Source: Rugalucina vietnamica
Taxonomy: Eukaryota; Mollusca; Bivalvia; Lucinida; Lucinidae
Assembly (NCBI GenBank): GCA_964017185.1
Contig: OZ024874.1
Span: 12,829,957-12,893,956, forward strand
Direction: 5' to 3'
Length of the DNA: 64,000 nt
Within the stretch, counting starts at the first letter, position 1. The number at the start of each line of letters is the position of its first letter. This document shows, piece by piece, positions 12,741 through 50,224 of the stretch. The notes beneath the pieces are model-generated. The model saw only the letters and a program-made list of their open reading frames with translations, ran no database searches and had not been told where the DNA came from. A program made the position numbers and the translations under genes.

Positions 12741-14060
12741 ATGGCGTCTTTCGACGAATCAGTCAAAATGTCATCCGATGAACGGTTCGAGATTGAATGC
12801 ACTCCTTGTAAAGATGGTGACACCATACGAGAGGCCAAGCACTTCTGTCCAGAATGTTCAGAATACTACTGCGACCCCTGTGAAATGACGCATCGACGAC
12901 TCAAGGCGACAAGATCTCATACGGTCCTTCACGGAGATGAAATGTCCCAAAGCACATCGCAAAGAAAAATCATGCTTCCCTTCATGTATTGCACCTGCGA
13001 TAAAACTCGGCTAGTAGAATTCATCTGCGAGGAACACCTTATTGCAGCCTGCTCGGAATGTAAAGGGGTCTACCACAGAAAGTGCAAGACGGTCTCTATC
13101 CAAGAAAAGGGCAGATCTTTCTCAAAAAGCAGCATAACGACAACATACGATACCATGAAAGCAATCGCTGAAAAGATTGACCAGATTCAAGAACAGCAGA
13201 AAGAATCTATTGAATCATTCGCTGAAATGAAAAATGCATGCAAAGAACGTATTGAAGCGATGAGACAGAAACTACACGTATTTGTTGATAAAATATCGGA
13301 TGCTTCTTTGGGAGAACTTGATACTTGCACTATGACCCACTCTAACGACAATGATGAAATCATAACAACGACTGCCAGTACGAAAGCGAAGCTTCAAAAT
13401 GAGATGAAACGCCTAGAAGATGCCATTGCAACTGCTGATGGATGCCTGATGCTGGTTGCTGACACAATTGCCAAACAAAGATGCAACGACTTTCATAGCG
13501 TAACAGCGGATATAGAAAAAGACTTCATCTCTTTAGAAGTTACCTTTGATAACGATGAAACACTTAATGCGCTAATCGATAAAACAACCAAGTTGGGGAA
13601 TCTTCGCGTGAACATGAAACGTTCAACTGTTCTTCCAAAAGACTTAGCTAGTATGTCTTTGATTGAGGATAAAGATGCTAGCTTCAGTCCAAAAGATGCT
13701 AAAAGAATTACAGGGTCAGCGTTTATGCCTAATGGTGATCTACTTGTTTGTGATACTAGTTCAAATTTTGTGTCATTATTTGACCAGAGCTTCAATGTGG
13801 TTTCTACGTGGCAATCTTCAGAGAGCCCATGGAACGTGGCACCAGTAACAGACACTACTGCACTCGTCTCGCTATATAATGCCAAGAAATTACTGTTCAT
13901 AGATACAAGACCACTTATCAAGGAGAACAAATGTATCACACTGGATAAAAAATGTTTTGGAATCGCTTTAGTAGATGGTGAAATATTTGTTTCATGTTCC
14001 GATGATCCTGGCAAAGGAGAAATACGCATTCTTGATATGGATGGAAATAATATGAAATAA
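12741..14060 (+). CDS. TRIM-like B-box/coiled-coil/NHL-type protein, truncated 5' part
   Basis: A 439-codon frame. Residues 20-60 form a first B-box-like zinc finger (Cys20, Cys23, Cys36, Cys39, Cys44, Cys47, His51, His60). Residues 84-115 form a second (Cys84, Cys86, Cys96, His99, Cys104, Cys107, His112, Cys115). There is no RING finger. Residues of about 140-280 are Glu/Lys-rich and heptad-like (coiled coil). From about 315 the protein has propeller strands of the NHL/TRIM2-TRIM3 kind (FMPNGDLLVCD, CFGIALVDGEIFVSCSD). The frame stops after GEIRILDMDGNNMK, where the intact paralogue at 36785-38515 continues for about 120 residues. That missing part is found at 32836-33222. No splice donor lies before the stop, so the gene is probably broken, or makes a half-propeller protein. 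RING-less proteins of this kind may act in ubiquitin or innate-immune signalling; that role is inference. Confidence 0.8.
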   Translation: MASFDESVKMSSDERFEIECTPCKDGDTIREAKHFCPECSEYYCDPCEMTHRRLKATRSHTVLHGDEMSQSTSQRKIMLPFMYCTCDKTRLVEFICEEHLIAACSECKGVYHRKCKTVSIQEKGRSFSKSSITTTYDTMKAIAEKIDQIQEQQKESIESFAEMKNACKERIEAMRQKLHVFVDKISDASLGELDTCTMTHSNDNDEIITTTASTKAKLQNEMKRLEDAIATADGCLMLVADTIAKQRCNDFHSVTADIEKDFISLEVTFDNDETLNALIDKTTKLGNLRVNMKRSTVLPKDLASMSLIEDKDASFSPKDAKRITGSAFMPNGDLLVCDTSSNFVSLFDQSFNVVSTWQSSESPWNVAPVTDTTALVSLYNAKKLLFIDTRPLIKENKCITLDKKCFGIALVDGEIFVSCSDDPGKGEIRILDMDGNNMK

Positions 14061-28224: not shown

Positions 28225-29986
28225 CCCAGATAGCACGTATACATTGGCCCTCCATTGGCCCATCGGACGCCGCACGATTGGCCCATGATTGTAAAACTTG
28301 AATGGGCCAACCTAGTGTTTGCTCATCGGCCCAACTTTGGGCCATAACATTGGCTCTATATTGGGCCAATGCAGAGGTTTTGCAGCTTTTGTTGGCCCAT
28401 CACTGTTTGAATGTGCTCATTACAAGCTATCGACGATGTATTTCTATCGTATATGTCCACTCGGTACAGTTTCTTGATCTGCAGCACCATGGTGACTGTC
28501 GAGTTTGGAGCTCTATGCTGGATTACTTTGACGACTGGTATTCTGAAAACAAACGAATAAATACAGGACCATGAGAAAAACCTAAACTAGCCGCATTTAC
28601 GCAACATTTTAACGCGTGCATTTTAGCTCATAAAGGAATAGCTGTCAAAGAAATAAATGTTAAACTAAAACCATTTTGTTGCAACGAAGTATGATGGCTA
28701 AAGGAAATAAAACATTGAAGTAAATGATATCAATTATATTTACGCAACTGCCTTTTATAAGATAGAGAAATAAGCATAATAATTAATGCAAGAAATAAAT
28801 AAAACTTACCTTCTAAACCTCAAAGTGTCTGTTTCATGTATGCAAAACTGACTTCTCTAAAACTTCATGCGAAACACCTGTTAATAATTCTCATATGCCT
28901 GAGAAATTTTCTCGTTGCTATGACAACTGATGTACTCTTGTACTCTGGCTGGAGCAGCGAAGCAAATAATAAACCAAAATATTATGAAAAGGCGTGTTAC
29001 AGTGAAAAAAGGTGTTAACTTCAATTTTGCTTCCATTGCTTGCTAAATATTTACAGAATAGATATACAGTTAATTTAAATGGCCTGGTCAAGGAAGTAAA
29101 TGCTAATTAAGATAATGGTTTTAAAATCATTGATATTGATTTATAAATCATAATAATTATTTATGACTGATATATAAATTGATACCATGAGGAGACCGGA
29201 CTGTTTATTTAAACTCTTTATTGAACAAGATTTAAAGACAATTAATCGATAACAAATTAACACCGGTCAGTAATTAGTCATATACGAATCGGCCAATGAT
29301 ATGCCAACCATCGGCCAACGGAAAGTGTACACGACAAGTTTTTATTTATTTTTTCAGGCTTCTTTGTATGAGCCTTGTCAGTTATCCATTTCCTTAAATA
29401 TATGTCAATATTATGCATTAAGTTAGAGTTAAAGTACTGAGTACAAAAAAATAAGTAAAATAAAGCGAGTCGAAGACGAGCTGTTTTTACTTTTTTTTTT
29501 CTACGAGGTCTTTAACTAACTTGTAGTATGACACAAAACAAATTGGCAGATTCATACTGTAACTTCCAATATTAGGAAGATATTGTACGGGCTTCATCCC
29601 GCCCCTTTGCTTAGTATTAATATGTGGGCCCGCCTCTTTTGATATTTACTTGTATTGGATTTAATTTTACAAAAACTTCAAAGGAAAAACAGAAAGTCAT
29701 ACTACAATGTATCAAACTACTAAACTGTATAGAAAAAGAAAAAAAATATATCGTTTATTACAATATCTAACAAATATTGGGCCACTCTTGTTTCTGTGAA
29801 AGACAATCACTTTCATGATCCGTTGCAGTAGTAGATCGTTTGCCAAAATTGGGCCAACGTCGGCAAATATTGCATGTGAATGCACTACTACACCGACATT
29901 GGCCCAATGATGTACATGCAACTGCAACCAAACGCCAATTACCCAATCAATATGCAATGTTGGCCCAATGATATTTGCTATCTGGG
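28225..29986. mobile_element. Non-autonomous DNA transposon with TTGGCCCA motif clusters
   Basis: The inverted ends are CCCAGATAGCA and TGCTATCTGGG, flanked by AA on both sides. The octamer TTGGCCCA or its inverse TGGGCCAA recurs many times within about 170 bp of each end (for example around 28245, 28254, 28279, 28303, 28365, 28395; and 29778, 29850, 29899, 29960). The middle is AT-rich with no credible frame. Motif clusters just inside both ends are typical of transposase-binding regions. I do not recognise the superfamily: the 2-bp AA duplication argues against hAT and piggyBac. Confidence 0.75.
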
Positions 29987-32680
29987 AAAATCCAAGGATA
30001 TGCATGCTTTACTGGTCAAGTTAAAGAACATTACAGAGGAGTAGCAATATATGTAAGAGACAATATTAAAGCAGATTATTGTTACCCATTATTGAATGAT
30101 GACTTTAAAGAATCAGTTTGGTGTGAAATAAGGATGAATAGCAAAGACAAGTTACTCATTGGTGGAATATACAAATCTCCAAACAGTGATGCTGTGAATC
30201 ATGAACAATTGAACAAACTCATAACACAAGCAGTGGAATTGAAATATAAAAGTACGGTTATATTAGGTGACTTTAATTTCCCTGAAATCAACTGGGATAC
30301 TTGGACAGTAAATAAAAGTGAAACTCATCCAGCGTTCCATTTTGTTGAATGCATTAGAGACAATTTTTTGTATCAACACACAGACTCTTATACACGTTTT
30401 AGGGAGGGACAAGACCCAAGCTGTCTTGATTTAGTATTGACTGATAAAGAAGAGATTATTGAAGACTTAAAAATAGGAGATAAATTGGGAGCCAGTGATC
30501 ATGCTAGTATTGTTTTTGATGTTTTATGTGACATTGAAAGAAATGATCCCCAAAATATGAGACCTAACTTTTACAAAGCAGACTATAATTCAATTAGAGA
30601 TTATTTGAAGACTGTTGAATGGAATGAAATGTATGAATTGAATACTGAAGACTCGTGGAAATTTTTCATGACTAAGATAAACTATTGTATTGAAAAACAT
30701 GTACCAGTGAAAAGAACAAATACCAAATTCAAAAAGCCAAAATGGATGGACCAGTACTGTGTAAGGAAAGTGAAAAAGAAGTATCATGCATGGAAGCGTT
30801 TTACATACAGTCACAGCTATGTAGACTATGAGAATTATTGTAAACTGAGAAATAGTGCCTCTAAAGCAGTTAGATTTGCCAAGAAAAGGTATCAAAGGGG
30901 AATTGCTGAGAGTGTAAAAGAATCACCAAAAACTTTTTGGAGTCATGTTAAGGAGGAAACAAAGAGCAAAAGTAATATTGGAGATATTAAAGACGAAAAT
31001 GGAGAAATTAGAACAGATGATGCAGAAAAAGCTGAAATCCTAAATGACTTTTTTGCTTCTGTATTTACAGTGGAGGGAAATTCTGAAATGCCTGAATTTG
31101 AACAAAAAGTGAAAGACAATGAACACTTAAGTTTTGTTGACATTAAGGCAGAAAAAGTACTGAAACAGTTAAAAACTCTAAATAGTTCAAAATCGTGTGG
31201 TCCAGATCAATGTCATCCTTACTTTCTCAAAGAATGTGCTGAAGAGATATATATACCACTGACTGAAATATTTCGTAAATCTTTACGGTCGGGAGAAGTG
31301 CCTGAAGATTGGAGAAGAGCAAACATAACATGTATTTTCAAAAAGGGAAATAAACAAGATCCAGGGAATTATAGACCAGTGTCATTGACATCTGTAATAT
31401 GTAAACTGTTAGAAAGTAATATTAGAGAAGAAATAATGAACCACTTGTCAAAACATAATTTACTATCGGACAGTCAATTCGGATTTCGAAAGAATAGAAG
31501 CACTATATTGCAACTGTTAACGGTTATGGAAGATTGGACTGAAGCATTAGATAATAATTTGCAAGTAGATACAGTGTACATGGATTTCAGAAAGGCATTC
31601 GACAGTGTGCCTCATAAACGCCTTATCAAGAAATTGGCAGGTTATGGTATAGATGGAACATTGTTAACATGGTTGAAAAACTTTCTAAATGAAAGGAAAC
31701 AAAGAGTTGTGATCAATGGAAAGGCATCTAAGTGGAATGATGTATTGTCGGGAATTCCGCAAGGATCTATCCTCGGTCCTGTGTTGTTTATCCTCTACAT
31801 AAACGACCTACCTGGGGTCGTTGGAAGTGTTTGTCAATTATTTGCAGATGACTGCAAATTATACAGGAACATTAAATCTGAAGCTGACTTGAGGGAATTA
31901 CAAGAAGACATTGACAGGCTTTGTCAATGGAGTAAGGACTGGTTACTAGGATTCAACATCAAAAAGTGCAAATTAGTCTCATATGGAAATATCCATTTTG
32001 AAACTGAATATAAATTGACTGACAGTGACAATAACTCCCATACATTATCATCAGATGACTCAGAGTGTGATCTAGGTATTCTGTTCAAGAGAAACCTAAA
32101 ATTTGATGAACATATAAACAATGTAGTGAATAAAGTAAACCGTATAAGTGGTTTAATCAAAAGAAAATTCACACATATGGACAAAAGTTTATTTTTGACA
32201 TTATATAAATCACTATTGAGATCCCATCTGGATTATGGAAATCTGATATATTACCCAACAACCAAGAAAAACAAGCAAGTACTTGAGAATGCACAGCGTA
32301 GAGCTACACGTATGGTGCCAGAGTTACGTGGTATGTCATACAGTGAGCGCCTCATGGAACTGAATTTATCAACCTTAGAGTACAGGAGAAAAAGATATGA
32401 CATTATTCAAGTGTTTAAAATAGTCCATAAAATAGATGACATTGACATGAACAAATTCTTCACATTCACTGATAACAGCCAACTAAGAGGGCACAATCTT
32501 AAACTGACCAAACCCCGGGTAAATAAATCTATAAGGCTGAACTCATTTCCAATGCGAAATATTCAAGTATGGAATAACCTCCCATCAGAGGTCGTGAATT
32601 CTAAAACTGTGCTGGAGTTCAAGACAAAGATTGACCATTTATGGAAGAGTTCAAGATACGAATTATCTGACATCTACTAA
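29987..32680 (+). CDS. LINE ORF2, endonuclease remainder and reverse transcriptase
   Basis: An 898-codon frame without stops. It continues the endonuclease with GYACFTGQ, GGIYKSPNS, ILGDFNFPEINW and LGASDHASIVF, so the catalytic Asp/Asn and SDH motifs are intact. A linker follows, then the reverse transcriptase: SSKSCGPDQCHPYFLKE, NYRPVSLTSVICKLLE, DSQFGFRKNRST, YMDFRKAFDSVPH, SGIPQGSILGPVLF and the catalytic FADD at 31841-31852. It ends with the C-terminal block QRRATRMVPELRG, STLEYRRKRYD and WNNLPSEVV. This matches CR1-clade ORF2 proteins of about 1,000 residues. The nominal start at 29975 lies in the inserted transposon and is not biological. Apart from that insertion the protein looks undamaged, so the element is young. 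Confidence 0.9.
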   Translation, partial: KIQGYACFTGQVKEHYRGVAIYVRDNIKADYCYPLLNDDFKESVWCEIRMNSKDKLLIGGIYKSPNSDAVNHEQLNKLITQAVELKYKSTVILGDFNFPEINWDTWTVNKSETHPAFHFVECIRDNFLYQHTDSYTRFREGQDPSCLDLVLTDKEEIIEDLKIGDKLGASDHASIVFDVLCDIERNDPQNMRPNFYKADYNSIRDYLKTVEWNEMYELNTEDSWKFFMTKINYCIEKHVPVKRTNTKFKKPKWMDQYCVRKVKKKYHAWKRFTYSHSYVDYENYCKLRNSASKAVRFAKKRYQRGIAESVKESPKTFWSHVKEETKSKSNIGDIKDENGEIRTDDAEKAEILNDFFASVFTVEGNSEMPEFEQKVKDNEHLSFVDIKAEKVLKQLKTLNSSKSCGPDQCHPYFLKECAEEIYIPLTEIFRKSLRSGEVPEDWRRANITCIFKKGNKQDPGNYRPVSLTSVICKLLESNIREEIMNHLSKHNLLSDSQFGFRKNRSTILQLLTVMEDWTEALDNNLQVDTVYMDFRKAFDSVPHKRLIKKLAGYGIDGTLLTWLKNFLNERKQRVVINGKASKWNDVLSGIPQGSILGPVLFILYINDLPGVVGSVCQLFADDCKLYRNIKSEADLRELQEDIDRLCQWSKDWLLGFNIKKCKLVSYGNIHFETEYKLTDSDNNSHTLSSDDSECDLGILFKRNLKFDEHINNVVNKVNRISGLIKRKFTHMDKSLFLTLYKSLLRSHLDYGNLIYYPTTKKNKQVLENAQRRATRMVPELRGMSYSERLMELNLSTLEYRRKRYDIIQVFKIVHKIDDIDMNKFFTFTDNSQLRGHNLKLTKPRVNKSIRLNSFPMRNIQVWNNLPSEVVNSKTVLEFKTKIDHLWKSSRYELSDIY

Positions 32681-32835
32681 CTACGAGAAATCACAAAAAA
32701 CCGGAAGCGACGACTAAAATAAAAGAGTGCAGAGGGGAATAACAAGCCTAAAGGGCTTAAGAAGTTTCCCAGAAGACTAAAGGTAGACTAAAGGTAGGTA
32801 GTATAACGTGCAACCTAAAGGATGCACGTATTAAA

Positions 32836-33222
32836 AGGAGGCTCGGTGTCAGTAAAGACGGTGAGCCCATGCTGACTTCCCCAGCCTACTTATTGCTTGC
32901 AAAAGATGAAGTCCTTGTCACGGAATATAGTAGAGGAGAAATACTTGGCCAGAAGAATGATGGATACACCGGCCTCAAATATTCAATACCTGGAAGCAAT
33001 CTACTTGGCATGCTGATAGATGGTGGTGAGAACATCTACGTTTGCGATGAGAATAAAAGCTGTGTTTGTGTTATTACCGATGGCGGTACCAAACACAATA
33101 CTTTTCTAGAACTTCCAGACAGGAATGCTAAGCCAACATCCATCAGTTTCAGAACCATAGATAGTACTCTGATTGTCACCGGCTATAAGAAGATATACGT
33201 CTACAAAGTGAAACCAAAGTAA
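32836..33222 (+). pseudogene. C-terminal propeller fragment of the split TRIM-like gene
   Basis: The frame reads RRLGVSKDGEPMLTSPAYLL, then EYSRGEILGQKNDG, GMLIDGGENIYVCDENKS and IYVYKVKPK before a stop. It aligns without gap to the last part of the 576-aa paralogue, starting at KKRLGICEDG. Its first residue follows directly on the last residue of the frame that ends at 14057 (GNNMK). Together the two pieces give one complete propeller. The ATG at 32869 is internal and unlikely to be a true start. The fragment follows the LINE 3' end by about 30 bp. I see no promoter or upstream exon that could express it alone. Confidence 0.8.
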
Positions 33223-36765: not shown

Positions 36766-36784
36766 ATACCACTACAATAACAAA

Positions 36785-38515
36785 ATGATGATGTCGTCAG
36801 GAGATGCCGACAGTGTATTGCCAAATGAACAGCCAGAAAATACGATTTCTCCCGTCAGTGGTGGCGACATGAACAAAACCTTGGATCTGATTTCGTCGGC
36901 AGAGGGGTGCGGTTTCGATAAAGCCCACGACAACTCTGAATTGCGCAATATATCTGATTGTCATATAAAGGTGGGAGAAGTTCCTAAAGGCATTGGTGAT
37001 TCAGGAAAAGCTGTGAAAGATACAGTGAGGGTTACCCCTGTGGGACAGTGTAGGTGCGACCAAAGACTACCTATCGCGTTTATCTGCCAGGAGCATGGAG
37101 ATGCATTTTGCTCAAATTGTAAAAGTGGTTCCCACAAAAATTGCAAAACATCCATAATTTCTAAAAATGGAAGAAAAAATTCTAAGGATACCGTGAAATC
37201 AACATACAAGCAAATGGAAGCGATTAGTACACAAGTCGAGCATTTTCTTAATATTCAGCAAGAAAACGTTCGAAAATTCTCGAATATGACAGAAGACTGC
37301 AAGGAACGAATAAGAATAATGCGAGAAAAGCTACACAAGTTTATTGACAAAATAGCTGACGCGTCTTTGTTGGAACTAAGATCTTGCGCTTTAACTCACA
37401 CAAATGACATGGGCAGCGTTTTAGATAGGATTGCAAATATCAAAGAACAGGCTGCAAATGAAAAGAACATTTTAGAAAGCGCAATTTCAAGTGAGGACGC
37501 ACATCAGATGTCAACAGCCGATATGATTGGAGCACACAAATGTAAATTCTTCCAAAGAATGATCTCAGACATTGAAAATGATACAAAACTCCCGGAGATT
37601 TCATTTGAAGAAGACAAAACTATCAGTAACATAGTGGATAAAATAGGCAAGATAGGAATAGTTTCAATTCGTCAAGGGAAGTGCGCTCCTGACGTTATTT
37701 CTATGGATTTGATTGCCGCGTGTCCTATAGAGCACAAGGCTGCGAGGCTGTGTCCAAAAGATGCCGAGAGAATGACAGGTTCCACGTTCATGCCAAATGG
37801 CGACCTACTGATCTGTGACCGTAATGCAACACTAGTGAGATTATTTGACACTTCGTTCACGGAGGTTTCAAAGGTTCGACTCCCTGGAAACCCATGGGAT
37901 GTTACATCGGTAAAGAGCACCACGGCGCTTGTTTCAATGCCATATTTGATGAAACTGCAATTCATAGAGACGAAACCAAGCATGAAAGCAAAGACGAAGA
38001 AATGCATCACGCTAGATAGGAAATGTTTTGGAGTCTCTGTGGTGGATGATAGAATTTTCGTATCCTGTTCCGATGCCCCAGGAAATGGCGAGATTCGTAT
38101 ATTAGACATGGCTGGGAATCTCAAAAAGAGGCTTGGCATATGCGAAGACGGTACATCAGAATTGATTAACCCCCTGTACATGGTGTTTATACGAGGGTCT
38201 AAAACATATATTGCGTCGGAGTATGGGAAAAGAGAAATAGTAAACATGACAAAAACTGGCCAAATACAGTTCAGATACAGTGTTACTGGGGCCAGCCTAC
38301 GCGGTATGATTGTGGATAAGGATGAAAATATCTTTGTTTGTGACGAGAGCAAAAATTGTGTCTATGCCATCACAGATAACGGGACTAATCACCGGACTTT
38401 TCTTGAAATCCCGGCATCAGATGGTGATAGACCGACATCAGTATGTTACAGAGTTAGTGATGGCACGCTCGTCGTAACCTGCTGGAAAACTATACTGGTT
38501 TACAAACTAAAGTAA
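36785..38515 (+). CDS. TRIM-like B-box/coiled-coil/NHL-type protein, intact paralogue
   Basis: A 576-aa protein in one coding exon, just after a 3' splice site. The first 85 residues are acidic and Ser-rich, without zinc ligands. One B-box-like finger follows at residues 89-120 (Cys89, Cys91, Cys101, His104, Cys109, Cys112, His117, Cys120), equivalent to the second box of the paralogue at 12741. Residues of about 130-250 form a coiled coil (YKQMEAISTQVEHFLNIQQE). From about 315 a propeller runs to the C-terminus, with repeated strands such as FMPNGDLLICDRN, GVSVVDDRIFVSCSDA and IVDKDENIFVCDESKNC. There is no RING finger, so E3 activity of its own is not expected; B-box/coiled-coil proteins usually act as oligomeric scaffolds. 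The second ATG (36788) could serve equally well as the start. ATTAAA near 38546 may be the poly(A) signal. Confidence 0.85.
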   Translation: MMMSSGDADSVLPNEQPENTISPVSGGDMNKTLDLISSAEGCGFDKAHDNSELRNISDCHIKVGEVPKGIGDSGKAVKDTVRVTPVGQCRCDQRLPIAFICQEHGDAFCSNCKSGSHKNCKTSIISKNGRKNSKDTVKSTYKQMEAISTQVEHFLNIQQENVRKFSNMTEDCKERIRIMREKLHKFIDKIADASLLELRSCALTHTNDMGSVLDRIANIKEQAANEKNILESAISSEDAHQMSTADMIGAHKCKFFQRMISDIENDTKLPEISFEEDKTISNIVDKIGKIGIVSIRQGKCAPDVISMDLIAACPIEHKAARLCPKDAERMTGSTFMPNGDLLICDRNATLVRLFDTSFTEVSKVRLPGNPWDVTSVKSTTALVSMPYLMKLQFIETKPSMKAKTKKCITLDRKCFGVSVVDDRIFVSCSDAPGNGEIRILDMAGNLKKRLGICEDGTSELINPLYMVFIRGSKTYIASEYGKREIVNMTKTGQIQFRYSVTGASLRGMIVDKDENIFVCDESKNCVYAITDNGTNHRTFLEIPASDGDRPTSVCYRVSDGTLVVTCWKTILVYKLK

Positions 38516-39759: not shown

Positions 39760-40850
39760 TCAGGAGTCCACAAAGCTACTGTTAGGTATCTGACTTTCCA
39801 GTAACTCTCTCAGTTCATCTAATGATGTACATGCCGAGGGGAGACAAATCATTGCTTGTTTTGATGTGAATACTGGGTTATCGTCGCTGGACTCGCTCGC
39901 GAACTTCACATACAAATCAGACACACATAGACAGTCAAAACCGCACCACTGATACAACAGTCGCTGCAGTGCTGTCTTTGACAATTTGTACAAGTATTGC
40001 TCGAAAAATCGTTTTACTTTCTTCTCAGTCTCGTTTTGTTCGAGATCGGACGAGAATATGTACGTCAGCCTTTCAGTAATGGCGGTTACGGATGGTGCGA
40101 GCGCTTGATAGACAGCTAGAATGTCTTCCTCACTTATCCCCTCCAATAATAAGGGTCCAGCCATCCGAATACCGTCTTTTAGTTTCAACAGTGACCAGTA
40201 TATCTGACGAATTAGATAACATTTCGCGACATCCGCCATGCTTGAATCAAGTTCCTCTGGGTTTGGGATCTTCCTGCAGCCGTAGCTTCCCAGAATAACT
40301 TTCACACCATGGTCGATTTGCAGTGAAAAGCTTTCAACTCCCATTCGAACTTCATCCATTGCATTTTCCAGAACCTCCTTTTCTGATTCTGACATCAGTC
40401 TGTACAGTGACGTCAGGAGCAATCTGTCTGAACATTTTCCTGTCAAAAGGTACGTGAGGCAAGCAGGCGAGAATTTTATTGGCAAATAATCCCTGAGAAT
40501 GAGTCCGTGGACTAAAACTCGACCGAGAATAACAAACAAATCGTCTGACACACTCGGATCTATAACGGGAATCTGGTCCTTATTTCCGGTAAAATGACGC
40601 CTGAATGCTTCCTCCCAGAACATTACGAGGATGGAACCAGTGTCCACGTCATCATCATGTGACTCAGTGTTGTCGTCAGCAAACTGATGTGGCTGGAAAC
40701 AGAATGTCAACTTGTGTTGTTCTAGAGCAGGGTCTCTTCTATACACTTCCATCATGTCAAGGAATAAGTTTTCTGGCTTGATATGAACTCTTTTCTCTTC
40801 CCTCAGTTGTTTTCGGAGTTCAGACGCCCTTTCGAAAACTCTTATTGCAT
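39760..40850 (-). CDS. HECT-like domain, last exon (no catalytic Cys)
   Basis: This is exon 5 of the five-exon gene that starts at 50212. The acceptor is TCTCTTTCAG|AT, with the exon from 40850 down and the stop at 39760-39762. The preceding exon ends ...GGNPF+G, and the join gives NPFDAIRVFERASELRKQL. This matches the conserved entry to the HECT-like domain of G2E3-related invertebrate and fish proteins. N-lobe features: VDTGSILVMFWEEAF, LGRVLVHGLILRDYLPIKFS and YLLTGK. C-lobe features: LLYQWCGFD and the end of the catalytic strand, PVFTSKQAMICLP. In active HECT ligases this strand reads P-x-A-x-T-C-x(5)-L-P. Here Lys replaces the Cys, and the only cysteine is five residues later. Ubiquitin transfer by the usual mechanism is therefore not expected; a binding or regulatory role is inference. 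Confidence 0.85.
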
Positions 40851-41017
40851 CTGAAAGAGAAAATGAAAACGTAACACATCATAACTGCTACCAATTTGCC
40901 TGCAAATTGCAGTCTAGCCAGCAGGACCGATGAGAAAATCTGTGGATGGTATATGAACAATTTGTCAAACTGAGTACAACAGGGTCCCGATCCTGGCCTC
41001 AAGGTTATAAACCTTTA

Positions 41018-41232
41018 GTCATGCTCAGCTAAGCTGAGACATAAATTTATCCTGCACACAAATGTTAAAATGCCAGCAACAATTGTTGGCATTTATTGGC
41101 ATTTTAACATTTATAAGCAGGATAAATTACTGGCTCAAGTTGATGGTCTAACCACAAAACATCAATGAATTTGGGCTATTTCAGTATTAATGCAGTTTAT
41201 GTTTCAAGCTCAGCTGAGTTGAGCATGAAAAA
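41018..41232. mobile_element. Small palindromic element in the last intron
   Basis: Outer arms CATGCTCAGCTAAGCTGAG and CTCAGCTGAGTTGAGCATG enclose an inner inverted pair, AATTTATCCTGC...ATGTTAAAATGCCA and TGGCATTTTAACAT...GCAGGATAAATT. Confidence 0.6.
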
Positions 41233-41379
41233 CATTTTTATACTGCAAATTGCATCGAATTTTGAAACAAATCGCGTGCTTCGTTCATAAAATTCTTTCT
41301 CATTTGAATACACTTGATGGTTCAAAGTGTCGACGACAGCGTGTGTTCATTGTCGAAATGGAGCCACAAAATAAATATT

Positions 41380-41615
41380 TGAGCCACCTCGTGGGAAAAC
41401 CAACAATGTGGTTTCCGAACAGGTTTGACACAAACCGGCCTGTACAGCTACAGAAGCAGGCTAGAAGCTTGAAATTTTGGAGTTAAGTAGAGGAGGAATA
41501 GTACTATCCGAGAAGCGAAAACAAAGGCGCTGATCAGCTTCGCAGTTACTACGAAGCTGATCTGCGCCTTTGTTTTCGCATATGCAGATTGTTGGTTTTC
41601 CCATGCGGCGGCTCA
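41380..41615. mobile_element. Palindromic MITE, family 1 (copy 8)
   Basis: Near-consensus copy, TGAGCCACCTCGTGGG to CATGCGGCGGCTCA, with TT on both sides. The central hairpin GATCAGCTTCGCAG-TTA-CTACGAAGCTGATC is present. It sits in the last intron of the HECT-like gene. Confidence 0.85.
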
Positions 41616-42185
41616 TTTCTTTCAGTCGATTAGATACACTATGCACGATTCTGCAAGCCCCTGTCTGTGGAGATTTAACATTGAACATGATTATTTTAAA
41701 AGTTCATAGTTTCCTGCAGAAAGTACTTTCACGCTCTAGTGGTCACAGTCGCGTGCTTGATCAAAAATAAAAAGCATTGCAGATGATGAGGAACAAAATT
41801 TGCTTCAAGATAATACTAAGATTATTATACTCAAATCATTCATATGCGCACGCGCAGCAATTTTCGTGAACTTGATCCGGAACGGGTAGATTAATTGTAT
41901 CTACGCAAAAAAGCACAATATCATAGCTGCATTGGTCGATAACGCAAAATCAAATCTTAAAACTACCCCCGGAAACTACCGCTGAAATCAGTGAATTTAT
42001 TTCGTTTCATTTACGAACTGCGATTTCGAACTATACCCATACGGAACGACGGACAAGTGTGCGTATTGTAAGGAAAAACACCACCGCTCGTACGTCATGT
42101 GAAGCGATATTAAGAATTACATGAACATCGTTCCGAATGTCTGATTTTTTACTGCAATGAAAATTAATCTCTGTGTTACACAAAC

Positions 42186-43494
42186 CTGTAACTACTTCTA
42201 TTTTCGGGACAATTCCGTGGTCTTCCTGGATGCCATCCATTCTTTCTGGTACTGGGCTGCTACAGGGCTCTGTCTTGATCACAACGACCGGCTCTGTTAC
42301 GCTCACAGACATTGGCTCTGACCTGGGCATCTTGGCCGGCTCTGTCACGTTCACAGACATTGTCTCTGACCTGGAGCTCGTGGCAGGCTTTGGCATGATG
42401 GTCTTCATGACTGTCTTTGACCTGGTTACCCCAGTCATGGAGAATGGGTGTGTGATTGACGCGGATGCTGGATGTGGCATAGCCGCCCGGACGGGCGCTG
42501 GTTTGAACATCAACACAGGTCCCGACAAAGGCACCAAGATTGGTTGTGAGAGAGACACCGAGACTGACCCCCTCTCCGCCATTTGTTGAGTTCCCCCAGC
42601 TTCAAGTGACCCTAGAAGACTAACAGGAGTAACTTTCAAGCAGAGATTGGTGTATTCCCTTGAGAGTCCATACGCCTTCGATAATGACTTCATTTTGATA
42701 CCAAGATTGTTCTTTCCAATAACAATATTTTCATACCAAATGTTAGAAATCAGAGTTTCTCGTGGAGCTTTTGGTCTCTGAAAGAAGAATGGGCACTTGG
42801 GGTTCAATCTTGACAAATATTTTGACAACGAATCAAACGCGCACAGTGGTGAGGAGGTTCTCAAGATTCTATTTCCTTTATCAGAATCACTCCTTGTACT
42901 GCCCCTCCCATTACCAGCATCCTTTAACTCAATATATCCGTCTTGTTCGTTCACAATAAAATCACTCTTCTTCAATGCCCGTAAATTCTCTCGCCCACGA
43001 TTGCTGAAATACAGCAGAAAATCGACGAACGCTTTATCCTGTAGACCTCTTGGTTTTCCCAACTCAAATGAAGTGTACAGTTTTATAAGATCATCTTTCG
43101 ATAACGGCGTCTTGTGCTGCACCGATTCTTTTCCTTCTTGAGTAACCCTGACTAGCATAGCACTGAATATCTTATTCGCCTCCTTGAACTCTTTCCCATG
43201 CACTACATCAACCCCCTTTTCTTTCTCGAAATGTTTTTGGAGCCCATAGCGTATTGCTATCATTGATTTCTTGCTGTACAGCTCCCTAGTTTTTGACCTG
43301 GCTCCGGTGTAAAACTTCTTCAACGTATCGTTCAGATCCTCATTGTCCCTATCGATGTTTTGTTCCGTACAAAATGAATCGAATATCCTTACTGCACCTC
43401 TCACAACTCTTTTGGTGCTTTCAGAATCTTTCTTTTCTAAAATTTTCAACAATTCCTCTTCCTGAATCGAATCAAATGTTTCCCCAGTCGCCAT
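42186..43494 (-). CDS. Crypton-derived DUF3504 protein; possible alternative first exon of the HECT-like gene
   Basis: It starts at ATG 43494 with an in-frame TAG 12 nt upstream. Residues of about 20-110 form the core-binding part (VRGAVRIFDSFC, LNDTLKKFYTGARSKTRELYSKKSMIAIRYGL, FKEANKIFSAML). The recombinase-like core follows (FVDFLLYFSNRGRENLRALKKSDF, retaining the first Arg; CPFFFQRP). The usual TNHxxR box reads TNLCLKVT near residue 285, so His and Arg are lost and the GH-Tyr end is absent: a catalytically dead tyrosine recombinase. This matches DUF3504 proteins of the KIAA1958, ZMYM2 and QRICH1 group. The tail is Ser/Thr/Pro-rich with repeated (S)EPMSVxVTEP and SUMO-like VIKTEP. The frame can run on to a TGA at 42031 (487 aa). 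However, VVT-G|GTTTGT at 42186/42185 is a possible donor in the same phase as the HECT-like exon at 40850, and that join would give 799 aa. Confidence 0.75.
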
Positions 43495-44177
43495 CTTTGT
43501 CGCTTGCTAGATGGTTTTCCGCTGCACAATTCCGACGCATCGTTACAATCCGGAAACAGTTAGCCGCAGGGAACCAACTTTATCGATCAAGGTTTGTTTA
43601 CACGTCTGACAGGTAGACAGTTAAAAATATCACCCATTAAATAGTGCATTAACTGGGTCAACCCGGTTTTAACTTCTCAAATGCGCCGCGTCATGATGAT
43701 AGTGATATTGAATATCAACGACAAGTAAGTTGAAACTCATCTTTAACAGAACAGTGCGCAGCTTTAGCCTATGTCTGCATCTGCTCATGCTGACACAGCC
43801 GCGACGCGAGCGAAGGTTTAGAGTTCACGCGACCGAATCGGGCATAGCCGTTTTCGATTATTTAATGATTGTAACATGAGCGCAAAGCGGCAAAAATCCA
43901 TTCCCATGCAATCTTCAGTCACAATTCATCATGTATGTAACCTTTCTATTAAATAAGATTTTTTTCTTCGGCTTCACGAAGTGATAAAATGTCAAATCTT
44001 AAACTAAACGTTTTCATACCAAGTTCCCCTTATACTTTTCCTGAATGTTACACATATAAGAAAATGAAACATTTCCTTGTACACTTACTACAATTATAAC
44101 TTATGATAGGAAACTAAAATTCCGTACGGTACACTATAAATCGCAACCTAAAAGAATCGAAAACATGGCGGAGGTTG
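43495..44177. promoter_or_regulatory. Upstream region of the DUF3504 gene
   Basis: Intronic to the larger gene but upstream of ATG 43494, so it should hold the promoter if the DUF3504 gene is transcribed on its own. It is locally GC-richer around 43530-43680 and 43795-43860. I could not identify a TATA box or initiator with confidence. Confidence 0.3.
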
Positions 44178-44356
44178 GCTTGATTGATTGTTTGATTGAT
44201 TGATTGGGGTTTAACGTCCCACCAACAGCTAAGGTCATATGGAGACGGGACCTCGGTTTATAGTCTCAATCCGAAGGACTGGAGAAGCCCGGGATCGAAC
44301 CTGCGACCCCTGGTTTACAAGGCAAATGGCTTAACAACTGCGCCTCGGAGGCTTTG
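44178..44356 (-). mobile_element. tRNA-derived V-domain SINE, minus strand
   Basis: On the minus strand: GCCTCCGAGGCGCAGTTGTTAAG (A box), GCAGGTTCGATCCCGGG (good B box), a V-domain segment (CCTTCGGATTGAGACTATAAACCGAGG) and GGGACGTTAAACCCCAATCAATC as tail. Confidence 0.8.
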
Positions 44357-45589
44357 GAGGTTGGTGATTTAGTATTCACTATGAGCTTTTGCTGGAGTGT
44401 TATTCCGAATTTCGTAAAACACAGTGATTTATTTATAATTTTGAGACTATGAGTCCTTGGGACTCACTTGATTCTATATCAATGGGTCCTACTGCAAACT
44501 TATGGGTCCTGAACACTATTTTCATAGAAAAAGCATGCAAAATCATTGCATCCTGGGACCCACCGAAATTAAAACTTTGCATCCTAGAGACCAAATTGTG
44601 AGTATAGGATGCAGGATGCGCAGGTAAAAAATCACTGAAAACACACGCTACGGAGAAACGAAACTACTTTCTGCAGGAAACTACGCAATTTATTAAGCTG
44701 ATACTCCTAAGTAGGTTTTTGTAAAATCATTCATATGCAATATGCAATCCATCGAAGAGGAATGCTTTATGGCTTAAACGACGTTTACTGATTTGATCTA
44801 AAATTCAAAGATAGACTCCACTGGCTATTCGACTTCGTCGAAACTCCATGTAAAATGTCTTTTGAAAGTGAAATTACATCAGGGAAACTTATTCATGAAA
44901 TGTAGGCCTATACATGTACATCGTTAGAATAATGGGTTTCATTTATTTGTATTAAGTCTGAGAATGTATACTCGTGCTGCTTAGAAATGTTAACAAGCAC
45001 AATTTAAATTAAACAGATTTAGGTGTTAAGCTTATTCTTCGAATTTTATTGCAATCCAATTTTTGCCTACCATCATCAATTATTGAATAACATGTCATGT
45101 TAACTGATCAGCGATCCTCAAAATTTAAATCAACCACGCAATGCAACGAACACACTTATGCTCAAATGCGTTTAAACTGTTCGATGTCATCGACGTTTCG
45201 AATTAAAGTCACATGCCGAATACCAGCAAATCCCCATGCATTTCGTTTCTTACAGACACACTGCCTCTGTTAAATCGCCATAGTGACTGGTCATTAAAAT
45301 TTAAGTTTCACGCCCTACCAGTATTTTAGTTTTGAAAATATTCCGACGAAACTTTGGACGGGATGAGTAAAAATTGGGTAAAATAATCCACTGTAGCGTT
45401 CGCTCTTTTGGCTAGTATATTTATTAAATCGTGTACTGAGACAGTTGGAAAACATTATTTTTTATAAAATCACGACAAAAGGACATTTTGCTTTAAAGTT
45501 TGAGGGGGAAAAATAGTACATGTATCTACCTTCGCAAACGCAATTCAAATCATTAATCGTTGAACCCTCACAAAATAAACATTCCTTCT

Positions 45590-45591
<2 letters not shown>
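44357..45591. other. Intron sequence; no gene seen
   Basis: Part of the 4.9-kb last intron of the HECT-like gene. No additional exon with good splice sites was recognised. Confidence 0.4.
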
Positions 45592-45688
<97 letters not shown>

Positions 45689-45716
45689 CAAATAAACTAC
45701 AACGCACGCACGCACG
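45592..45716. repeat. (AC)n and (GCAC)n compound microsatellite
   Basis: (AC)n runs to about 45645, followed by (GCAC)n to about 45689 and then a duplicated AAATAAACTACAAC spacer with more GCAC units. It lies 60-190 bp inside the intron on the minus strand, where it reads as (GT)n. Confidence 0.95.
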
Positions 45717-45781
45717 CACAAATAAACTACAACAGTCGGCGGTTATGTGCGCTAGAGTCTAAGAGATGGGAGTCGCCTTAC

Positions 45782-45884
45782 CAAATGGGTTGCCGCCTGT
45801 CCCATTGCATTGCACGTGCTCTTCATTACAACCAATGATTTCGTCAGTTTCCATGGCATCGGTGGCTGCTGTATCAGCACGAGC
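45782..45884 (-). CDS. HECT-like gene, exon 4
   Basis: Bounded by acceptor TTTTTCAG|GCT (45884) and donor CATTTG|GTAAGG (45782/45781). It encodes ARADTAATDAMETDEIIGCN, then EEHVQCNGTGGNPF plus the first base of an Asp codon. It is 103 nt and changes phase from 0 to 1, matching the HECT-like exon at 40850. This is an acidic linker before the HECT-like domain. Confidence 0.75.
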
Positions 45885-45954
45885 CTGAAAAATGATTACA
45901 TTACGAAAACTTTCCCATGTACTTTTCCGCTGTGAAAATAAAAATTTCATTAGA

Positions 45955-46133
45955 GAAAAGTTTGATTTTTTTTCTTATTTTTGCCGAGTCAAAACATATA
46001 TTGTGGGTACACGTTAGAACCGCCTCGGCGAGTCGGTTCTAACGAGTACCGACAATCTATGTTTTGAACTAAAGATAAGAAAACTAGATATACCCCTGTT
46101 TTCCTAAAAACGAGAAGTGGGGTTCAAGGGAGC
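45955..46133. mobile_element. Hairpin MITE, family 2 (copy e), truncated and inverted
   Basis: Contains CATATATTGTGGGTACACG, the hairpin TTAGAACCGCCTCGGCGAGTCGG and the TATACCCCTGTTTTCCTA block in inverse order. It lies in the intron between exons 3 and 4. Confidence 0.7.
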
Positions 46134-46196
46134 AATGTTTCCGAGCCTCTCCGTTCCACAGAACCACTCTCGCCAGTTTTGTTACCAAGAAGCTGA

Positions 46197-46420
46197 TGAG
46201 GCCCTCCCAGGGGGGGGGGGGGGTCTTTGCTCCCTGCTCCCTGAAAGAAAAATGACCTTTCTCCCCAGCTCCCCAAAATGTTTTTCCTAAGCCCCCTGCT
46301 CCCTGCTCCCTAAAACCCCAAAATCTCCCCAAATCCCTGAAAATAAATGACCCTTCTCCCCAAATCCCTGAAAATAAATAGCCCTTCTCCCTGAATCCCC
46401 CAAACCCCTGGGAGGGCCTC
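46197..46420. mobile_element. MITE-like element with internal CTCCCT minisatellite
   Basis: Inverted ends GAGGCCCTCCCAGGGG / CCCCTGGGAGGGCCTC. The interior is a degenerate tandem array of CTCCCTGAAA, AATGACC and TTCTCCCC units. Confidence 0.6.
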
Positions 46421-46708
46421 GCTGATCAAGACTGAAAGGGCTGCGATATCATGGTTTTAACATGTTGGCACTTTTCGAAATAAAATATTATTATAATTGT
46501 TTATTACAATATAAAATATTATTGTTCATGTTGTTCAAATTGAGACTTTAGAAACAAAATTTATTGGAACCAACAATAATCTATTATAGGTTGTAGAGTG
46601 ATATACATAGATAATTTGACCACCAATGAAAGAAGATATCAGCCTCCCCTCCCCCCACCCATCCCAACACACTCGATGGGATATTGCTAAGGTCAGTGCG
46701 GTATATAC

Positions 46709-46957
46709 CTGCAACAGAGCCTTAACGGCTTCTTTTGGCGACAGTTCTACCGTTTGCGTTGGAAACACCGGCTGTTGCTCGGCCTGGAACTCTTCTTCGG
46801 TAACTTCCGTCACCTCCGCGTCGGAAACCAGCCCGGGTAGACTGGTTAACGGAATGGTTAGATTTTGCATTAAATTCAGACTATTGCTGTTTGGAGAAGA
46901 GAAGCAGTCATCAAAGTTCCGGTGTATCACCGGCGCGGGACGGTCATCATAGTTGTC
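46709..46957 (-). CDS. HECT-like gene, exon 3
   Basis: Acceptor CAATTCCAG|GAC (46957) and donor TTGCAG|GTATAT (46709/46708); 249 nt, phase 0 at both ends. It encodes DNYDDRPAPVIHRNFDDCFS, then an acidic stretch VSDAEVTEVTEEEFQAEQQP and ELSPKEAVKALLQ. This is a linker region without a recognisable fold. Confidence 0.75.
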
Positions 46958-47344
46958 CTGGAATTGAATGGTCATCAAACATTACGTTATTTAGGGGTTG
47001 AACTGTCTGGCTGTCCGTACGAGTGTACGTCACGACCGTCCGTCTGTATGTCTGTCTGTTAGGCTACTCAGTATTTTAAGCTATAGCTTCTGAGAAATGA
47101 ATCGCTCATTTTCCTTATGCATCTGCCAGAAGAGGTCTAAAATTGCCCAATAAACCTTTAAGTTATAGAAAAGAAGGAACCAAATAGTCGAAGAAACAAA
47201 ATAGCCTGTAGGATTTATTACAAACTCTACAAAATACGTATGGACGGCCCGCTAGTCATTTAGGAATGTCATCATTGTAAAAAAATGAAATGTATGGATT
47301 CAAACATGTACATTTTCATAGCTTTATATTCAAATCATACTTAC

Positions 47345-47577
47345 GTATGGTATAATGATAACACTGCCTTGATATTTCATATCTTTGAGTTCTCTGGGTG
47401 ATTTAACGTCAATCCTGATGAGACGTCGCGTCTTGTCTATCCTGTACATATCATACATGCGGCCCTCTAACTTAGGATATATAGCAACCATGAAGTTATG
47501 GAACTTTTCATCGGAGAAGCTCAGGCACATTGCGGTTTTCCGGGGTATTCCGTTGATATAATCTTGTGCTGGGTATC
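47345..47577 (-). CDS. HECT-like gene, exon 2
   Basis: Acceptor TTGAACAG|GAT (47577) and consensus donor CATAC|GTAAGT (47345/47344); 233 nt, phase 1 to 0. It encodes YPAQDYINGIPRKTAMCLSF, then SDEKFHNFMVAIYPKLEGRM, YDMYRIDKTRRLIRIDV and KSPRELKDMKYQGSVIIIPY. The pattern of a short F..YPKL..Y....L..I...SP.ELK....I.P module upstream of a HECT-like domain is also seen in G2E3-like fish and invertebrate proteins. I have no firm name for the module. Confidence 0.8.
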
Positions 47578-47972
47578 CTGTTCAATTAAAACAAAACGTT
47601 GGAATACAAATGAGCCTTCGCGTGAAAAAAAAAATCTGGCTTTTCGACCAAATATGGTCCTTTATTACTAGAGCCGTGACGCGATAAAATGGTTTTCGGT
47701 GGTTCCGACCGAATCCGACACGTCAAAGTGACGCATGTTCAAAAAACAAAGAATCATGTACATTATTATGAATTGGAATTTCTTTTTTATATTTCTTGGA
47801 AAGGTTGGTACTTCAACAAAATTAAACATTCCGTCTAAACAGTTGTACAGAGCTATGGTTGTCCGAATACTGCTTCATAAAACAGAAATCAGTGAAAAAG
47901 AAAAATATTTTGCAATATTCCGGAATGGAATTAAACATCCTGAAATTCAGGGGACATCCAATCAATGAAAAT

Positions 47973-48222
47973 TAGTCAGGCCCAGCGGAAAATGCCATAT
48001 CGCATATGCGAGCTACACATTGAAGCTACAGACCAGCCTTTTTCTCAATCAGCTCTGCAGTAAACGCACAGCTGATCAGCGTCTTTGTTTTCGCTACACG
48101 GATAGTACAACTCTTCATCCTAAATCAGAAATTTTAAGCTTCTAGCCGTCTTGTAAGGCGGGTTGTGTCAGACCCGGTCGGAAACCCCGAAGACCGGTTT
48201 TCTAGCGTCGTGCATCATCTTT
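47973..48222. mobile_element. Palindromic MITE, family 1 (degraded copy 9)
   Basis: The stretch GCACAGCTGATCAGCGTC-TTTGTTTTCGCTACACGGATAGTAC and TTTTAAGCTTCTAGCCGTC are family-specific. Both ends are eroded. Confidence 0.6.
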
Positions 48223-48397
48223 GACGCGGACCGGAGAGAAAAATCGATCAAAACATGATTTTATGAAGATATTGATCACACTAGAAGACTTAATGTGGAA
48301 ATATTCTGATTCCATAATTATATGATATTTCTTTATTATCGGCAAAATGGGTTATTTGCGTCAGAGAGCTATTTGGAATTCTCGTTATTCATTTAAG

Positions 48398-48866
48398 AAA
48401 TAGATCAGCTCTAGCAGTGAATTGTTGAGTAATAATTCACTGTTTGGAGGTCAGTTGTAAAGAAGATCAAATCACGAGCGCGTAGCGCGAGTGATTTATC
48501 TTCTTACAACTGACCGACAAACAGTGAATTATTACTCAACAATTCACGCACTTGAGCTGATCTATTTCGATTCTAACACACAATAAACGGTATAAATGTT
48601 GCTGAAACCGTCGATATCGTTCAGCTTTCCGCCATTGCATTGCAGATATCCCGCCAAATATTTGACTGTAATGCTGGTATTTACACACACTTATTACGTT
48701 TGTTGTGCGCTAAAACGACGTTTCACCGTCTAACGCTGCTTTGTGGGATAGCTGACGTCACAAATGCCGCAAAGTAACGTCACGCTTATTCGCCCAGTGA
48801 AATCGTTGCACAATATAACACGTTTTTTACCATTGGCTATATAGGCGAGGTGTGTTAGAATTAACG
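48398..48866. mobile_element. Composite palindromic element, full copy
   Basis: Two adjoining inverted structures. 48398-48567 has AAATAGATCAGCTC / GAGCTGATCTATTT arms and the inner pair TGAATTGTTGAGTAATAATTCACTGTTTG and its inverse. 48571-48860 has TTCTAACACAC / GTGTGTTAGAA arms. The copy at 20821-21022 has both parts in the same relative order, so they move together. Confidence 0.65.
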
Positions 48867-49041
48867 GTTTATTCACAGATGAAGTCAGAATGTCGCTGTA
48901 GCATAAACTTTAAAAAATGCGGGGAACTGTTTTTGTTTCTGTAAAACCAGACTTTATTTTTCTGTAATCTGAAATGTGAAAATCCTACTGAGCATTCACA
49001 CTGAAGCTCCCTTCATCGTTACGTGGCTGTATACATGACAT

Positions 49042-49093
<52 letters not shown>

Positions 49094-49096
49094 ATA
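49042..49096. repeat. (TAAA)n microsatellite
   Basis: About 13 tetranucleotide units in the first coding intron of the HECT-like gene. Confidence 0.95.
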
Positions 49097-49356
49097 CCGT
49101 ATTCGTTCTAATTAGCGCACAGTGCAGTTAACTTATCAAAATAATTTAAAGTTTATGTAACAAAATATCATTCTAATAAGCGCACACGAAGAACCGAAAC
49201 AACACATTCACATGTCAAAATAATCAATGATGATGCCATTTGACCATTTACGGTTAAGTTTTAAAGCAATGTAACGTCGAGCTATAAATGATTTTTTTTA
49301 ATCGCCATGCACCAAACTTCTCAATATAGCCGCACTGCAACGTATAAACTACCTAC

Positions 49357-50224
49357 CATAACCTTCTTGCTGGTGCTGGTCTACCAGGCATCTCTCTACC
49401 GGATCCAAGGATGAAAACTTTGGAAGCTTAGAATTTTTATCTGGTAGACAGTACATAAATACTGAAAACGTTTCTTTTTCTTTTGGTCCTCTCTTCTTCT
49501 TGTTTCTGTGACGTAGAACTTCCATAGCGTGCATGATGATACCAGGATTGGCGACTTGGCCGAAACGGTCAAAATTGTCTATTCCTGGTCGCAAAACCCG
49601 ACCCGATGCCGTTCTGGTGCGGATTGGTCCTCCGCCTGACGAGCGGCTCTGCAAAAGACCGCCTTCTAATTTTATATGCGGGGAACCAGGGTTTGGCGGA
49701 GACGCTGTTCCATTTATTGTACCAACTTCCTGTTTGACTTTGTTCTGATATATGGGAGCCGGAGCTGACCGAATGTTCGCGAGGCCATTTTGAAGAGTGT
49801 GAAGTTGCATAATCTGCGCTATGGTCGCTGGCTTGTCACCTCCTGGCTTTTTCGTCTGCGGAAGCATGCTCGGTATAAATCCAAGATGGCTACTACTAGC
49901 GGTTGCATTTCTGACGAGCTGTTTGGCAAGTTCCGCCATTACAAGTTGATCGGTACTGGGGTGGGCTGTTTCTGCTGGTTTTTGCAAGATGGGCAGCGTT
50001 TGCGCCGGCGCCGGAGAAGACGTAGGTTCTTGTATTCCGCTTGAGAGCTGTCTGGCCAGCGCTATCAGCTTTTCTGGGTCGTTTGGTAAATTTGTCGTCT
50101 GCTGTGGTAATTTCGGAAGCTGAAATGCATTCTGGGGCTGTTGCTGGGGCAACTGTGTTTGTTGCATCATCATGGACGCCAACTGAATCATAAGTTTGGT
50201 GTTCTCGTCCATCTTTATTTTTTC
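49357..50224 (-). CDS. HECT-like gene, first coding exon
   Basis: With exons at 47345-47577, 46709-46957, 45782-45884 and 39760-40850 this predicts 843 aa from ATG 50212. The exon is bounded by acceptor CTTGTTGCAG|GAAAAAATAAAG (50224) and donor GGTTATG|GTAGGT (49357/49356), phase 1. An ATG at 50254 is also in frame if the acceptor is not used. The protein begins MDENTKLMIQLASMMMQQ with a Gln-rich stretch (LPQQQPQNAF) and is Pro/Ser-rich. It has two SUMO-consensus sites (KVKQEVG, HIKLEGG), then RTRTASGRVLRPG, a basic stretch RHRNKKKRGPKEKE (possible nuclear signal) and CLPDKNSKLPKFSSLDPVER. A nuclear, transcription-linked role is inference. Upstream 5'UTR exons were not found. Confidence 0.75.

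Follow-up and report, generated by a model that had tools for sequence, protein, structure and literature searches.

The window analysed here is a stretch of 64,000 nucleotides from the bivalve Rugalucina vietnamica (contig OZ024874.1), and its minus strand carries a gene model of five exons with a HECT-like last exon. Within the 4.9-kb fourth intron of this model, on the same strand, lies an open reading frame (ORF) related to the recombinases of Crypton DNA transposons. On balance we favour the view, drawn from sequence, that a dead Crypton recombinase has been captured here as an alternative first exon of the HECT-like gene, so that the locus would make both a hybrid and a host protein. All coordinates are positions in the window, and features lie on the minus strand unless marked otherwise.

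Two gene models with a common last exon

An earlier note on this DNA had described two gene models that end in a common exon, and rebuilding both reproduced its coordinates, phases and lengths (843 and 799 amino acids). In the rebuilt model, the five-exon gene begins with the ATG at 50212 and consists of exon 1 (coding, 50212-49357), exon 2 (47577-47345), exon 3 (46957-46709), exon 4 (45884-45782) and a last exon (40850-39760), which together encode 843 amino acids and a stop codon (TGA, 39762-39760). The frame of exon 3 stays open beyond its donor, and this exon serves below as a change-point control. Exon 4 ends in phase 1 at the donor TTG/GTAAGG, where the slash marks the exon boundary, and the acceptor of the last exon reads TTTCTCTTTCAG/ATG. 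Exon 1 retrieves only itself in a search of the genome (1.09 Gb, 47 contigs). Close to its start, past the exon 4 donor, intron 4 contains a long simple repeat, (tgcg)n(tg)n, at 45590-45730.

In the hybrid model, a recombinase-like coding exon of 436 codons and 1 nt (43494-42186) is joined to the same last exon to give 799 amino acids and a stop codon. The proposed donor is CAG/GTTTGT, with the last exon base at 42186 and the GT at 42185/42184. Exon 4 and the recombinase exon each end in phase 1 with a G, and each yields GAT (Asp) at the join. The recombinase part is a single exon upstream of the C-terminal exon of the host, with in-phase splice sites; the putative HECT-like domain is likewise contained within one exon, and judging by eye from the model we place the join in the linker before that domain.

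The label ‘HECT-like’, taken from the earlier note, survives in a weaker form than was claimed. In its favour, a genome search finds three relatives of the last exon, 22-24% identical to it, among them the loci L010 (E 5e-11) and L011 (E 3e-8), and L011 in turn retrieves the last exon at E 3.9e-8. L011 matches the Pfam HECT family below the cut-off (E 0.0061), and L010 does not. When a profile of the last exon, L010 and L011 is compared with a profile of eight in-genome HECT genes, the result is P 0.013 with an hhalign probability of 3.3%, and in that low-probability alignment the Cys of an LPSAC motif falls on the catalytic Cys of the HECT genes. Against the same HECT profile L011 alone gives P 0.0037, and the last exon alone gives P 0.26 over another stretch that does not include the Cys. 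Searches of the PDB with the last exon and with L011 returned nothing, and the three-row profile reached nothing beyond two weak rows for HUWE1 (E 0.6 and 0.85). An AlphaFold prediction of the exon, made without an alignment, was uninformative (mean pLDDT 41.8), and a comparison of exons 1-4 with L011 gave no notable similarity (best E 5.5). The last exon itself has no Pfam HECT match at E <= 1, and PF00632, with 64 matches across the genome, does not pick it up. These comparisons weakly suggest an exon that is HECT-like rather than HECT, which makes the partner in the proposed capture less certain.

The recombinase-like exon in intron 4

A genome search with the intronic ORF gives 63 matches at E <= 0.001, itself counted and some of them pieces of one copy, and the nearest relatives are L014 (58% identity), L015 and L016 (both 53%) and L017 (52%). 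The earlier note had assigned the ORF to DUF3504. This identity stands through its relative L014, which narrowly passes the Pfam DUF3504 family (PF12012; 30.3 vs 29.7 bits), but not through the ORF itself, which has no PF12012 match at E <= 1 and in Pfam matches only QRICH1, below the cut-off (E 0.0025). A PDB search with the recombinase exon gave only two weak rows, both unrelated, and NCBIfam gave nothing for three proteins. By homology, then, the intronic ORF is a relative of the Crypton-type tyrosine recombinases. A tree built from 11 of 20 recombinase loci makes it the sister of L014 (support 0.62), on a branch of 0.61 vs 0.22 for L014.

L014, L015 and L016 keep the motifs NHCLR and GHRS and a later Tyr. 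In the intronic ORF, NHCLR is replaced by NLCLK, the GHR motif and the Tyr are absent, and RGRENLR is retained; of the catalytic Arg, His, Arg and Tyr, the first Arg alone remains in a frame that is open for 436 codons. We take the residues of these motifs to have the catalytic roles given here, which is in line with the published account of DUF3504. With three of its catalytic residues (His, second Arg and Tyr) lost, the ORF can hardly remain a recombinase, and the product should not be called one, as the earlier note had done. The four intact catalytic residues by which an active Crypton transposon is recognized are likewise not found together in it. Human DUF3504 proteins have all lost the Tyr and the second Arg, and all except KCTD1 have lost the His (PMC3212892).

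Recombinase homology ends after about residue 298. The remaining 138 codons (42600-42187), which we call the tail, find no relative in the genome (the next match beyond the tail itself has E 4.1) and have a GC content of 0.54 vs 0.40 in the recombinase part. The tail contains a single motif of the SUMO type, IKTE. Among the relatives, L015 (G000:C13:27087370-27088287) and L016 (G000:C15:22716197-22717114) are near-identical ORFs on different contigs that keep the catalytic residues, and perhaps belong to a recently moving Crypton-like family.

Selection on the ORF was assessed by changes at each codon position, because NG86 gave no defined synonymous divergence (dS) in 10 of 12 comparisons and values >3 in the two remaining ones. 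Changes were counted where two of the three sequences agree (the intronic ORF, L014 and L015), with one outgroup and gapped alignments. In codons 111-300, second positions have changed at 38 of 159 sites in the intronic ORF vs 4 of 125 in L014 (P 4e-7), and third positions at 35 of 68 vs 42 of 75 (P 0.62); in codons 1-110, second positions have changed at 5 of 78 vs 10 of 83 (P 0.28). By this count the catalytic half is relaxed but not free (0.24 at second positions, 0.51 at third positions), and the N-terminal half is not relaxed.

Free drift at 0.305 differences per site would be expected to put 5.9 stops into the 190 codons of the catalytic half, and left it free of stops in 0.24% of 5,000 simulated runs; the real frame is open. 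The value of 0.305 is an upper one, in that sites with an unsure ancestor were charged to the branch of the intronic ORF, and the share of stop-free runs rises as the divergence falls, to 2.8% for 0.15 per site and 8.6% for 0.10, so the argument is less strong than the first figure suggests. Since no stop has appeared in the relaxed catalytic half despite the expectation under free drift, the frame has probably been preserved for some purpose. It leads into the tail and, given splicing, on to the HECT-like exon.

These results bear on the possibility that the ORF is a decaying element, a functionless pseudogene whose splice-like signals are accidental. The lost catalytic residues, the relaxed catalytic half and the branch that is long relative to that of L014 are all what such a copy would have. 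It should, however, have acquired stops in the catalytic half (the 5.9 given above, or 2.4 at one third of the divergence), and instead there are 436 codons with no stop or frameshift, an N-terminal half that is still constrained and a coding score that is positive up to the donor. With the frame open, we regard a decaying copy as the least likely of the rival explanations and quite improbable.

End of the coding region and candidate splice sites

A codon model was trained on 12 ORFs from the window and the other loci against introns. Under this model the recombinase part scores 0.112 bits/codon and the tail 0.175, against -0.231 in the 50 codons past the donor; exon 1 of the five-exon gene, with its own gene excluded from training, scores 0.104. 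None of 191 overlapping 51-codon coding windows, those of the five-exon gene among them, is as low as the stretch past the donor, and 92.5% of 1,580 non-coding windows score as high as that stretch or higher. The likeliest coding end is 42214, with a 3-bit interval of 42226-42163. Across eight training combinations (four coding sets by two non-coding sets) the likeliest end stays within 42220-42196, and the 3-bit interval includes 42186 in seven of the eight. As a control, the end of exon 3, again with the gene excluded from training, is put at 46691 (interval 46718-46589), where the assumed donor is 46709. Because the codon statistics, the chief new line of evidence here, turn non-coding at about 42186, we infer that the recombinase exon ends at a splice donor near this position and not at the TGA at 42031 (42033-42031); the open frame in between (42183-42031) would then be non-coding.

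The strongest rival to the capture is a stand-alone, single-exon Crypton-derived gene that ends at this TGA and is polyadenylated after an AATAAA at 42001 (42001-41996), in which case the HECT-like exon would belong to the five-exon gene only and the match in phase would be due to chance. The AATAAA, like the acceptor-like site at 42611 discussed below, is absent from the earlier note. It begins 30 nt past the TGA, to which the frame is open, on a strand that has 1.09 AATAAA per kb, and the sequence following it is rich in T and G. Moreover, the closest relatives, L014-L016, are single ORFs that stop soon after the recombinase domain, and L015 has A[AT]TAAA ~40 nt past its stop. On the other hand, among five relatives checked for A[AT]TAAA only L015 has it within 50 nt; in L025 it is at ~135 nt, and in L014, L016 and L022 it is absent from the 1.1-1.4 kb examined past the stop. 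The codon statistics also speak against a stand-alone gene, both in the low score of the 50 codons past 42186, under all 191 coding windows, and in the coding end found by all eight training combinations. We therefore consider such a gene unlikely, though it deserves more weight than any other rival.

At the other side of the proposed join, the acceptor at 40850 has a score of 8.16, the first of 260 AGs in 43600-39800; AGs with scores this high, itself counted, make up 0.18% of the 3,366 on this strand of the window. It is also the best of 138 AGs in 42150-39800, where the sole other site that scores >0 and opens an in-frame run of at least 100 amino acids is 40439, within the HECT-like exon. 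The donor at 42186 scores 1.53, a value bracketed by those of the five-exon gene's four donors (1.35 to 4.09). In 20,000 trials, a random 64-nt interval on this strand contained a donor-like GT of such a score in the given phase in 3.9% of cases, and in any phase in 11.5%. The recombinase-HECT join put forward in the earlier note is in frame in the models and gains support from a coding signal that ends at ~42186 and from the best downstream acceptor at 40850; the match in phase is weak evidence by itself. CpG and GC profiles inspected as promoter evidence were not decisive.

Two other ways of splicing the ORF were considered. In the first, the whole recombinase would be an internal exon after exon 4; this was rejected because an in-frame TAG (43509-43507) stands just before the ORF, and between that TAG and the ATG there is a single in-phase AG, with a score of -11.3 (exon start 43502). 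In the second, exon 4 would be spliced to an acceptor-like site, TTCTAG/GGTC (42613-42611, exon start 42611), which is in phase 1 after exon 4 too, and 42186 would be spliced to 40850, so that the tail (here 142 codons) would be an optional internal exon and the start of the recombinase perhaps unused. The site at 42611 ranks 6th of 368 AGs in 45720-39800 and is one of three among the 113 AGs of the recombinase ORF that score >=2.69; the protein is in frame across both joins, and the tail differs from the recombinase part in GC content and has no relative. Yet with three good sites, chance alone would be expected to put one in phase, and the N-terminal half upstream of 42611 is constrained. 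In addition, recombinase homology seems to continue for ~14 nt past 42611 (SLLGSLEA vs TLLDCFEA), and this position is therefore no obvious old host boundary. We view a cassette of this kind as improbable.

Proposed capture, its precedents and neighbouring repeats

The capture that we favour would have proceeded as follows. A Crypton DNA transposon may have inserted in the same orientation into intron 4 of a HECT-like host gene, as the layout suggests. Its recombinase has lost catalytic residues, while the N-terminal half, in the one three-way comparison, stayed constrained. It includes a tail that has no relatives, and the codon statistics suggest that the coding part now ends at the donor at 42186. 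Transcripts that begin before 43494 would then probably be spliced from 42186 to 40850, giving a product of 799 amino acids with a dead recombinase domain, the tail and a HECT-like domain, and the 843-amino-acid protein would be made from the host promoter. Following a proposal for the family (PMC3212892), the recombinase part might serve as a module that binds DNA or protein and redirects the HECT-like domain to other targets.

Apart from the uncertain HECT assignment and the limits of the drift argument, several points weigh against this reading. The weight tables behind the splice scores are approximate: they give the three remaining acceptors assumed for the five-exon gene 2.69, -0.05 and -0.11, two of them about 0. 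The donor at 42186 is only 5th of the 93 GTs in the ORF, although the four that outscore it are all out of phase, and agreement in phase was rejected as evidence in its own right, as it arises by chance in 1 of 3 cases. Since other acceptors, at 41439 (46 amino acids more), 41447 (33) and 41900 (21), could serve 42186 too, use of this donor would be no proof of the HECT join; the first two of these acceptors sit in a high-copy repeat. With recombinases only as the coding set, the tail scores only 0.07 and 0.04, and the interval for the coding end is 42229-42196 with the first non-coding set, missing 42186 by 10 nt, and a wide 42880-42184 with the second. Finally, the frame stays open for 50 codons past the donor, and in the catalytic half changes remain roughly twice as frequent at third as at second positions.

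A more specific and highly speculative idea, which we consider very unlikely, is a transposon-guided ubiquitin ligase, in which the constrained N-terminal half of the dead recombinase would bind Crypton-like DNA or Crypton proteins and deliver an active HECT-like domain there, the captured recombinase thus policing its relatives. Some of these putative targets, L014-L016, are present in the same genome with the frame open and the catalytic residues kept.

In the ‘transposase capture’ that Cosby and others reportedly described in 2021, a transposase gene that lies within a host gene or close to it is spliced to host exons. Those host-transposase fusions are said to involve mainly DDE transposases; here the captured gene would be that of a tyrosine recombinase. 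The closest precedent is KCTD1b of vertebrates, a longer isoform that begins with a Crypton-derived DUF3504 domain contained in one exon. The shorter isoform has no Crypton domain and retains the C-terminal domain, and in KCTD1b the catalytic Tyr and second Arg are lost as in the bivalve ORF (PMC3212892). A dead Crypton exon as an alternative N-terminus is thus not new in kind, and the earlier note's proposal of an alternative first exon matches the published explanation of KCTD1b. There are differences: the partner in KCTD1b is BTB/POZ rather than HECT-like, its insertion is inferred to lie upstream of the gene rather than in intron 4 of a model, and KCTD1 keeps the His that is lost here. KCTD1b is also conserved across jawed vertebrates and expressed (PMC3212892).

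Other comparisons are less direct. The Crypton in an ATF7IP intron of amniotes is likewise a recombinase ORF within a host intron, for which splicing into the host gene was predicted and a fusion mRNA was not seen; unlike the ORF described here, which is open and has no full set of catalytic residues, it is intact in zebra finch and frameshifted in chicken and turkey (PMC3212892). In KIAA1958 isoforms a and b, intronless DUF3504 exons are also alternative parts of one locus, with splicing that is unconfirmed by experiment, but there the alternatives are two DUF3504 domains and not one such domain vs a host N-terminus (PMC3212892). The Caenorhabditis F-box genes with a Tc1/mariner domain, as presented in the main text of PMC12062965, similarly combine a transposon domain with a ubiquitin-ligase component, but of another transposon class and with F-box instead of HECT; the words HECT, crypton and recombinase are absent from that main text. 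The main text of a bivalve HECT survey (PMC11353290) is without recombinase, transpos- and DUF3504, and in the literature searched no publication was found in which DUF3504 occurs together with HECT. The locus is thus a candidate for an independent case of the KCTD1b kind, in which the partner domain would be new. A real join would mean that Crypton recombinases became alternative N-termini on more than one occasion, in both molluscs and vertebrates, and that one of these captures adjoins a ubiquitin-ligase-like domain.

Several repeats lie around the recombinase ORF. Two inverted arms of 32 nt (41699-41730 and 44660-44691, 88%) flank it, and their 19-mer TAGTTTCCTGCAGAAAGTA has 111 places in the genome at <=1 mismatch (reversed control, 0); among the matches listed, in an order that puts exact ones first, only the two arms are exact. 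The arms as ends of one element are unsupported. Because the core motif of the arms is absent from the other recombinase loci examined and homology to the repeat L072 extends outward from both arms, two old repeat insertions seem likelier. A repeat of ~245 bp, containing inverted arms, is situated at 41377-41617 inside the proposed hybrid intron and has at least 40 other places at 94-98% identity (40 of 10,253 candidates scored); as merely these 40 were scored, its true copy number is probably far higher.

Elsewhere in the window, three plus-strand ORFs (12741-14057, 32761-33219 and 36782-38512) look alike by eye; two were scanned, one giving a weak B-box match (E 0.00061, below the cut-off) and one nothing, and together they perhaps form a TRIM/NHL-like cluster. 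Also on the plus strand, an open frame of 902 amino acids that encodes both an endonuclease and a reverse transcriptase domain (29972-32677) and a second reverse transcriptase fragment (3315-3977) represent LINE-type elements.

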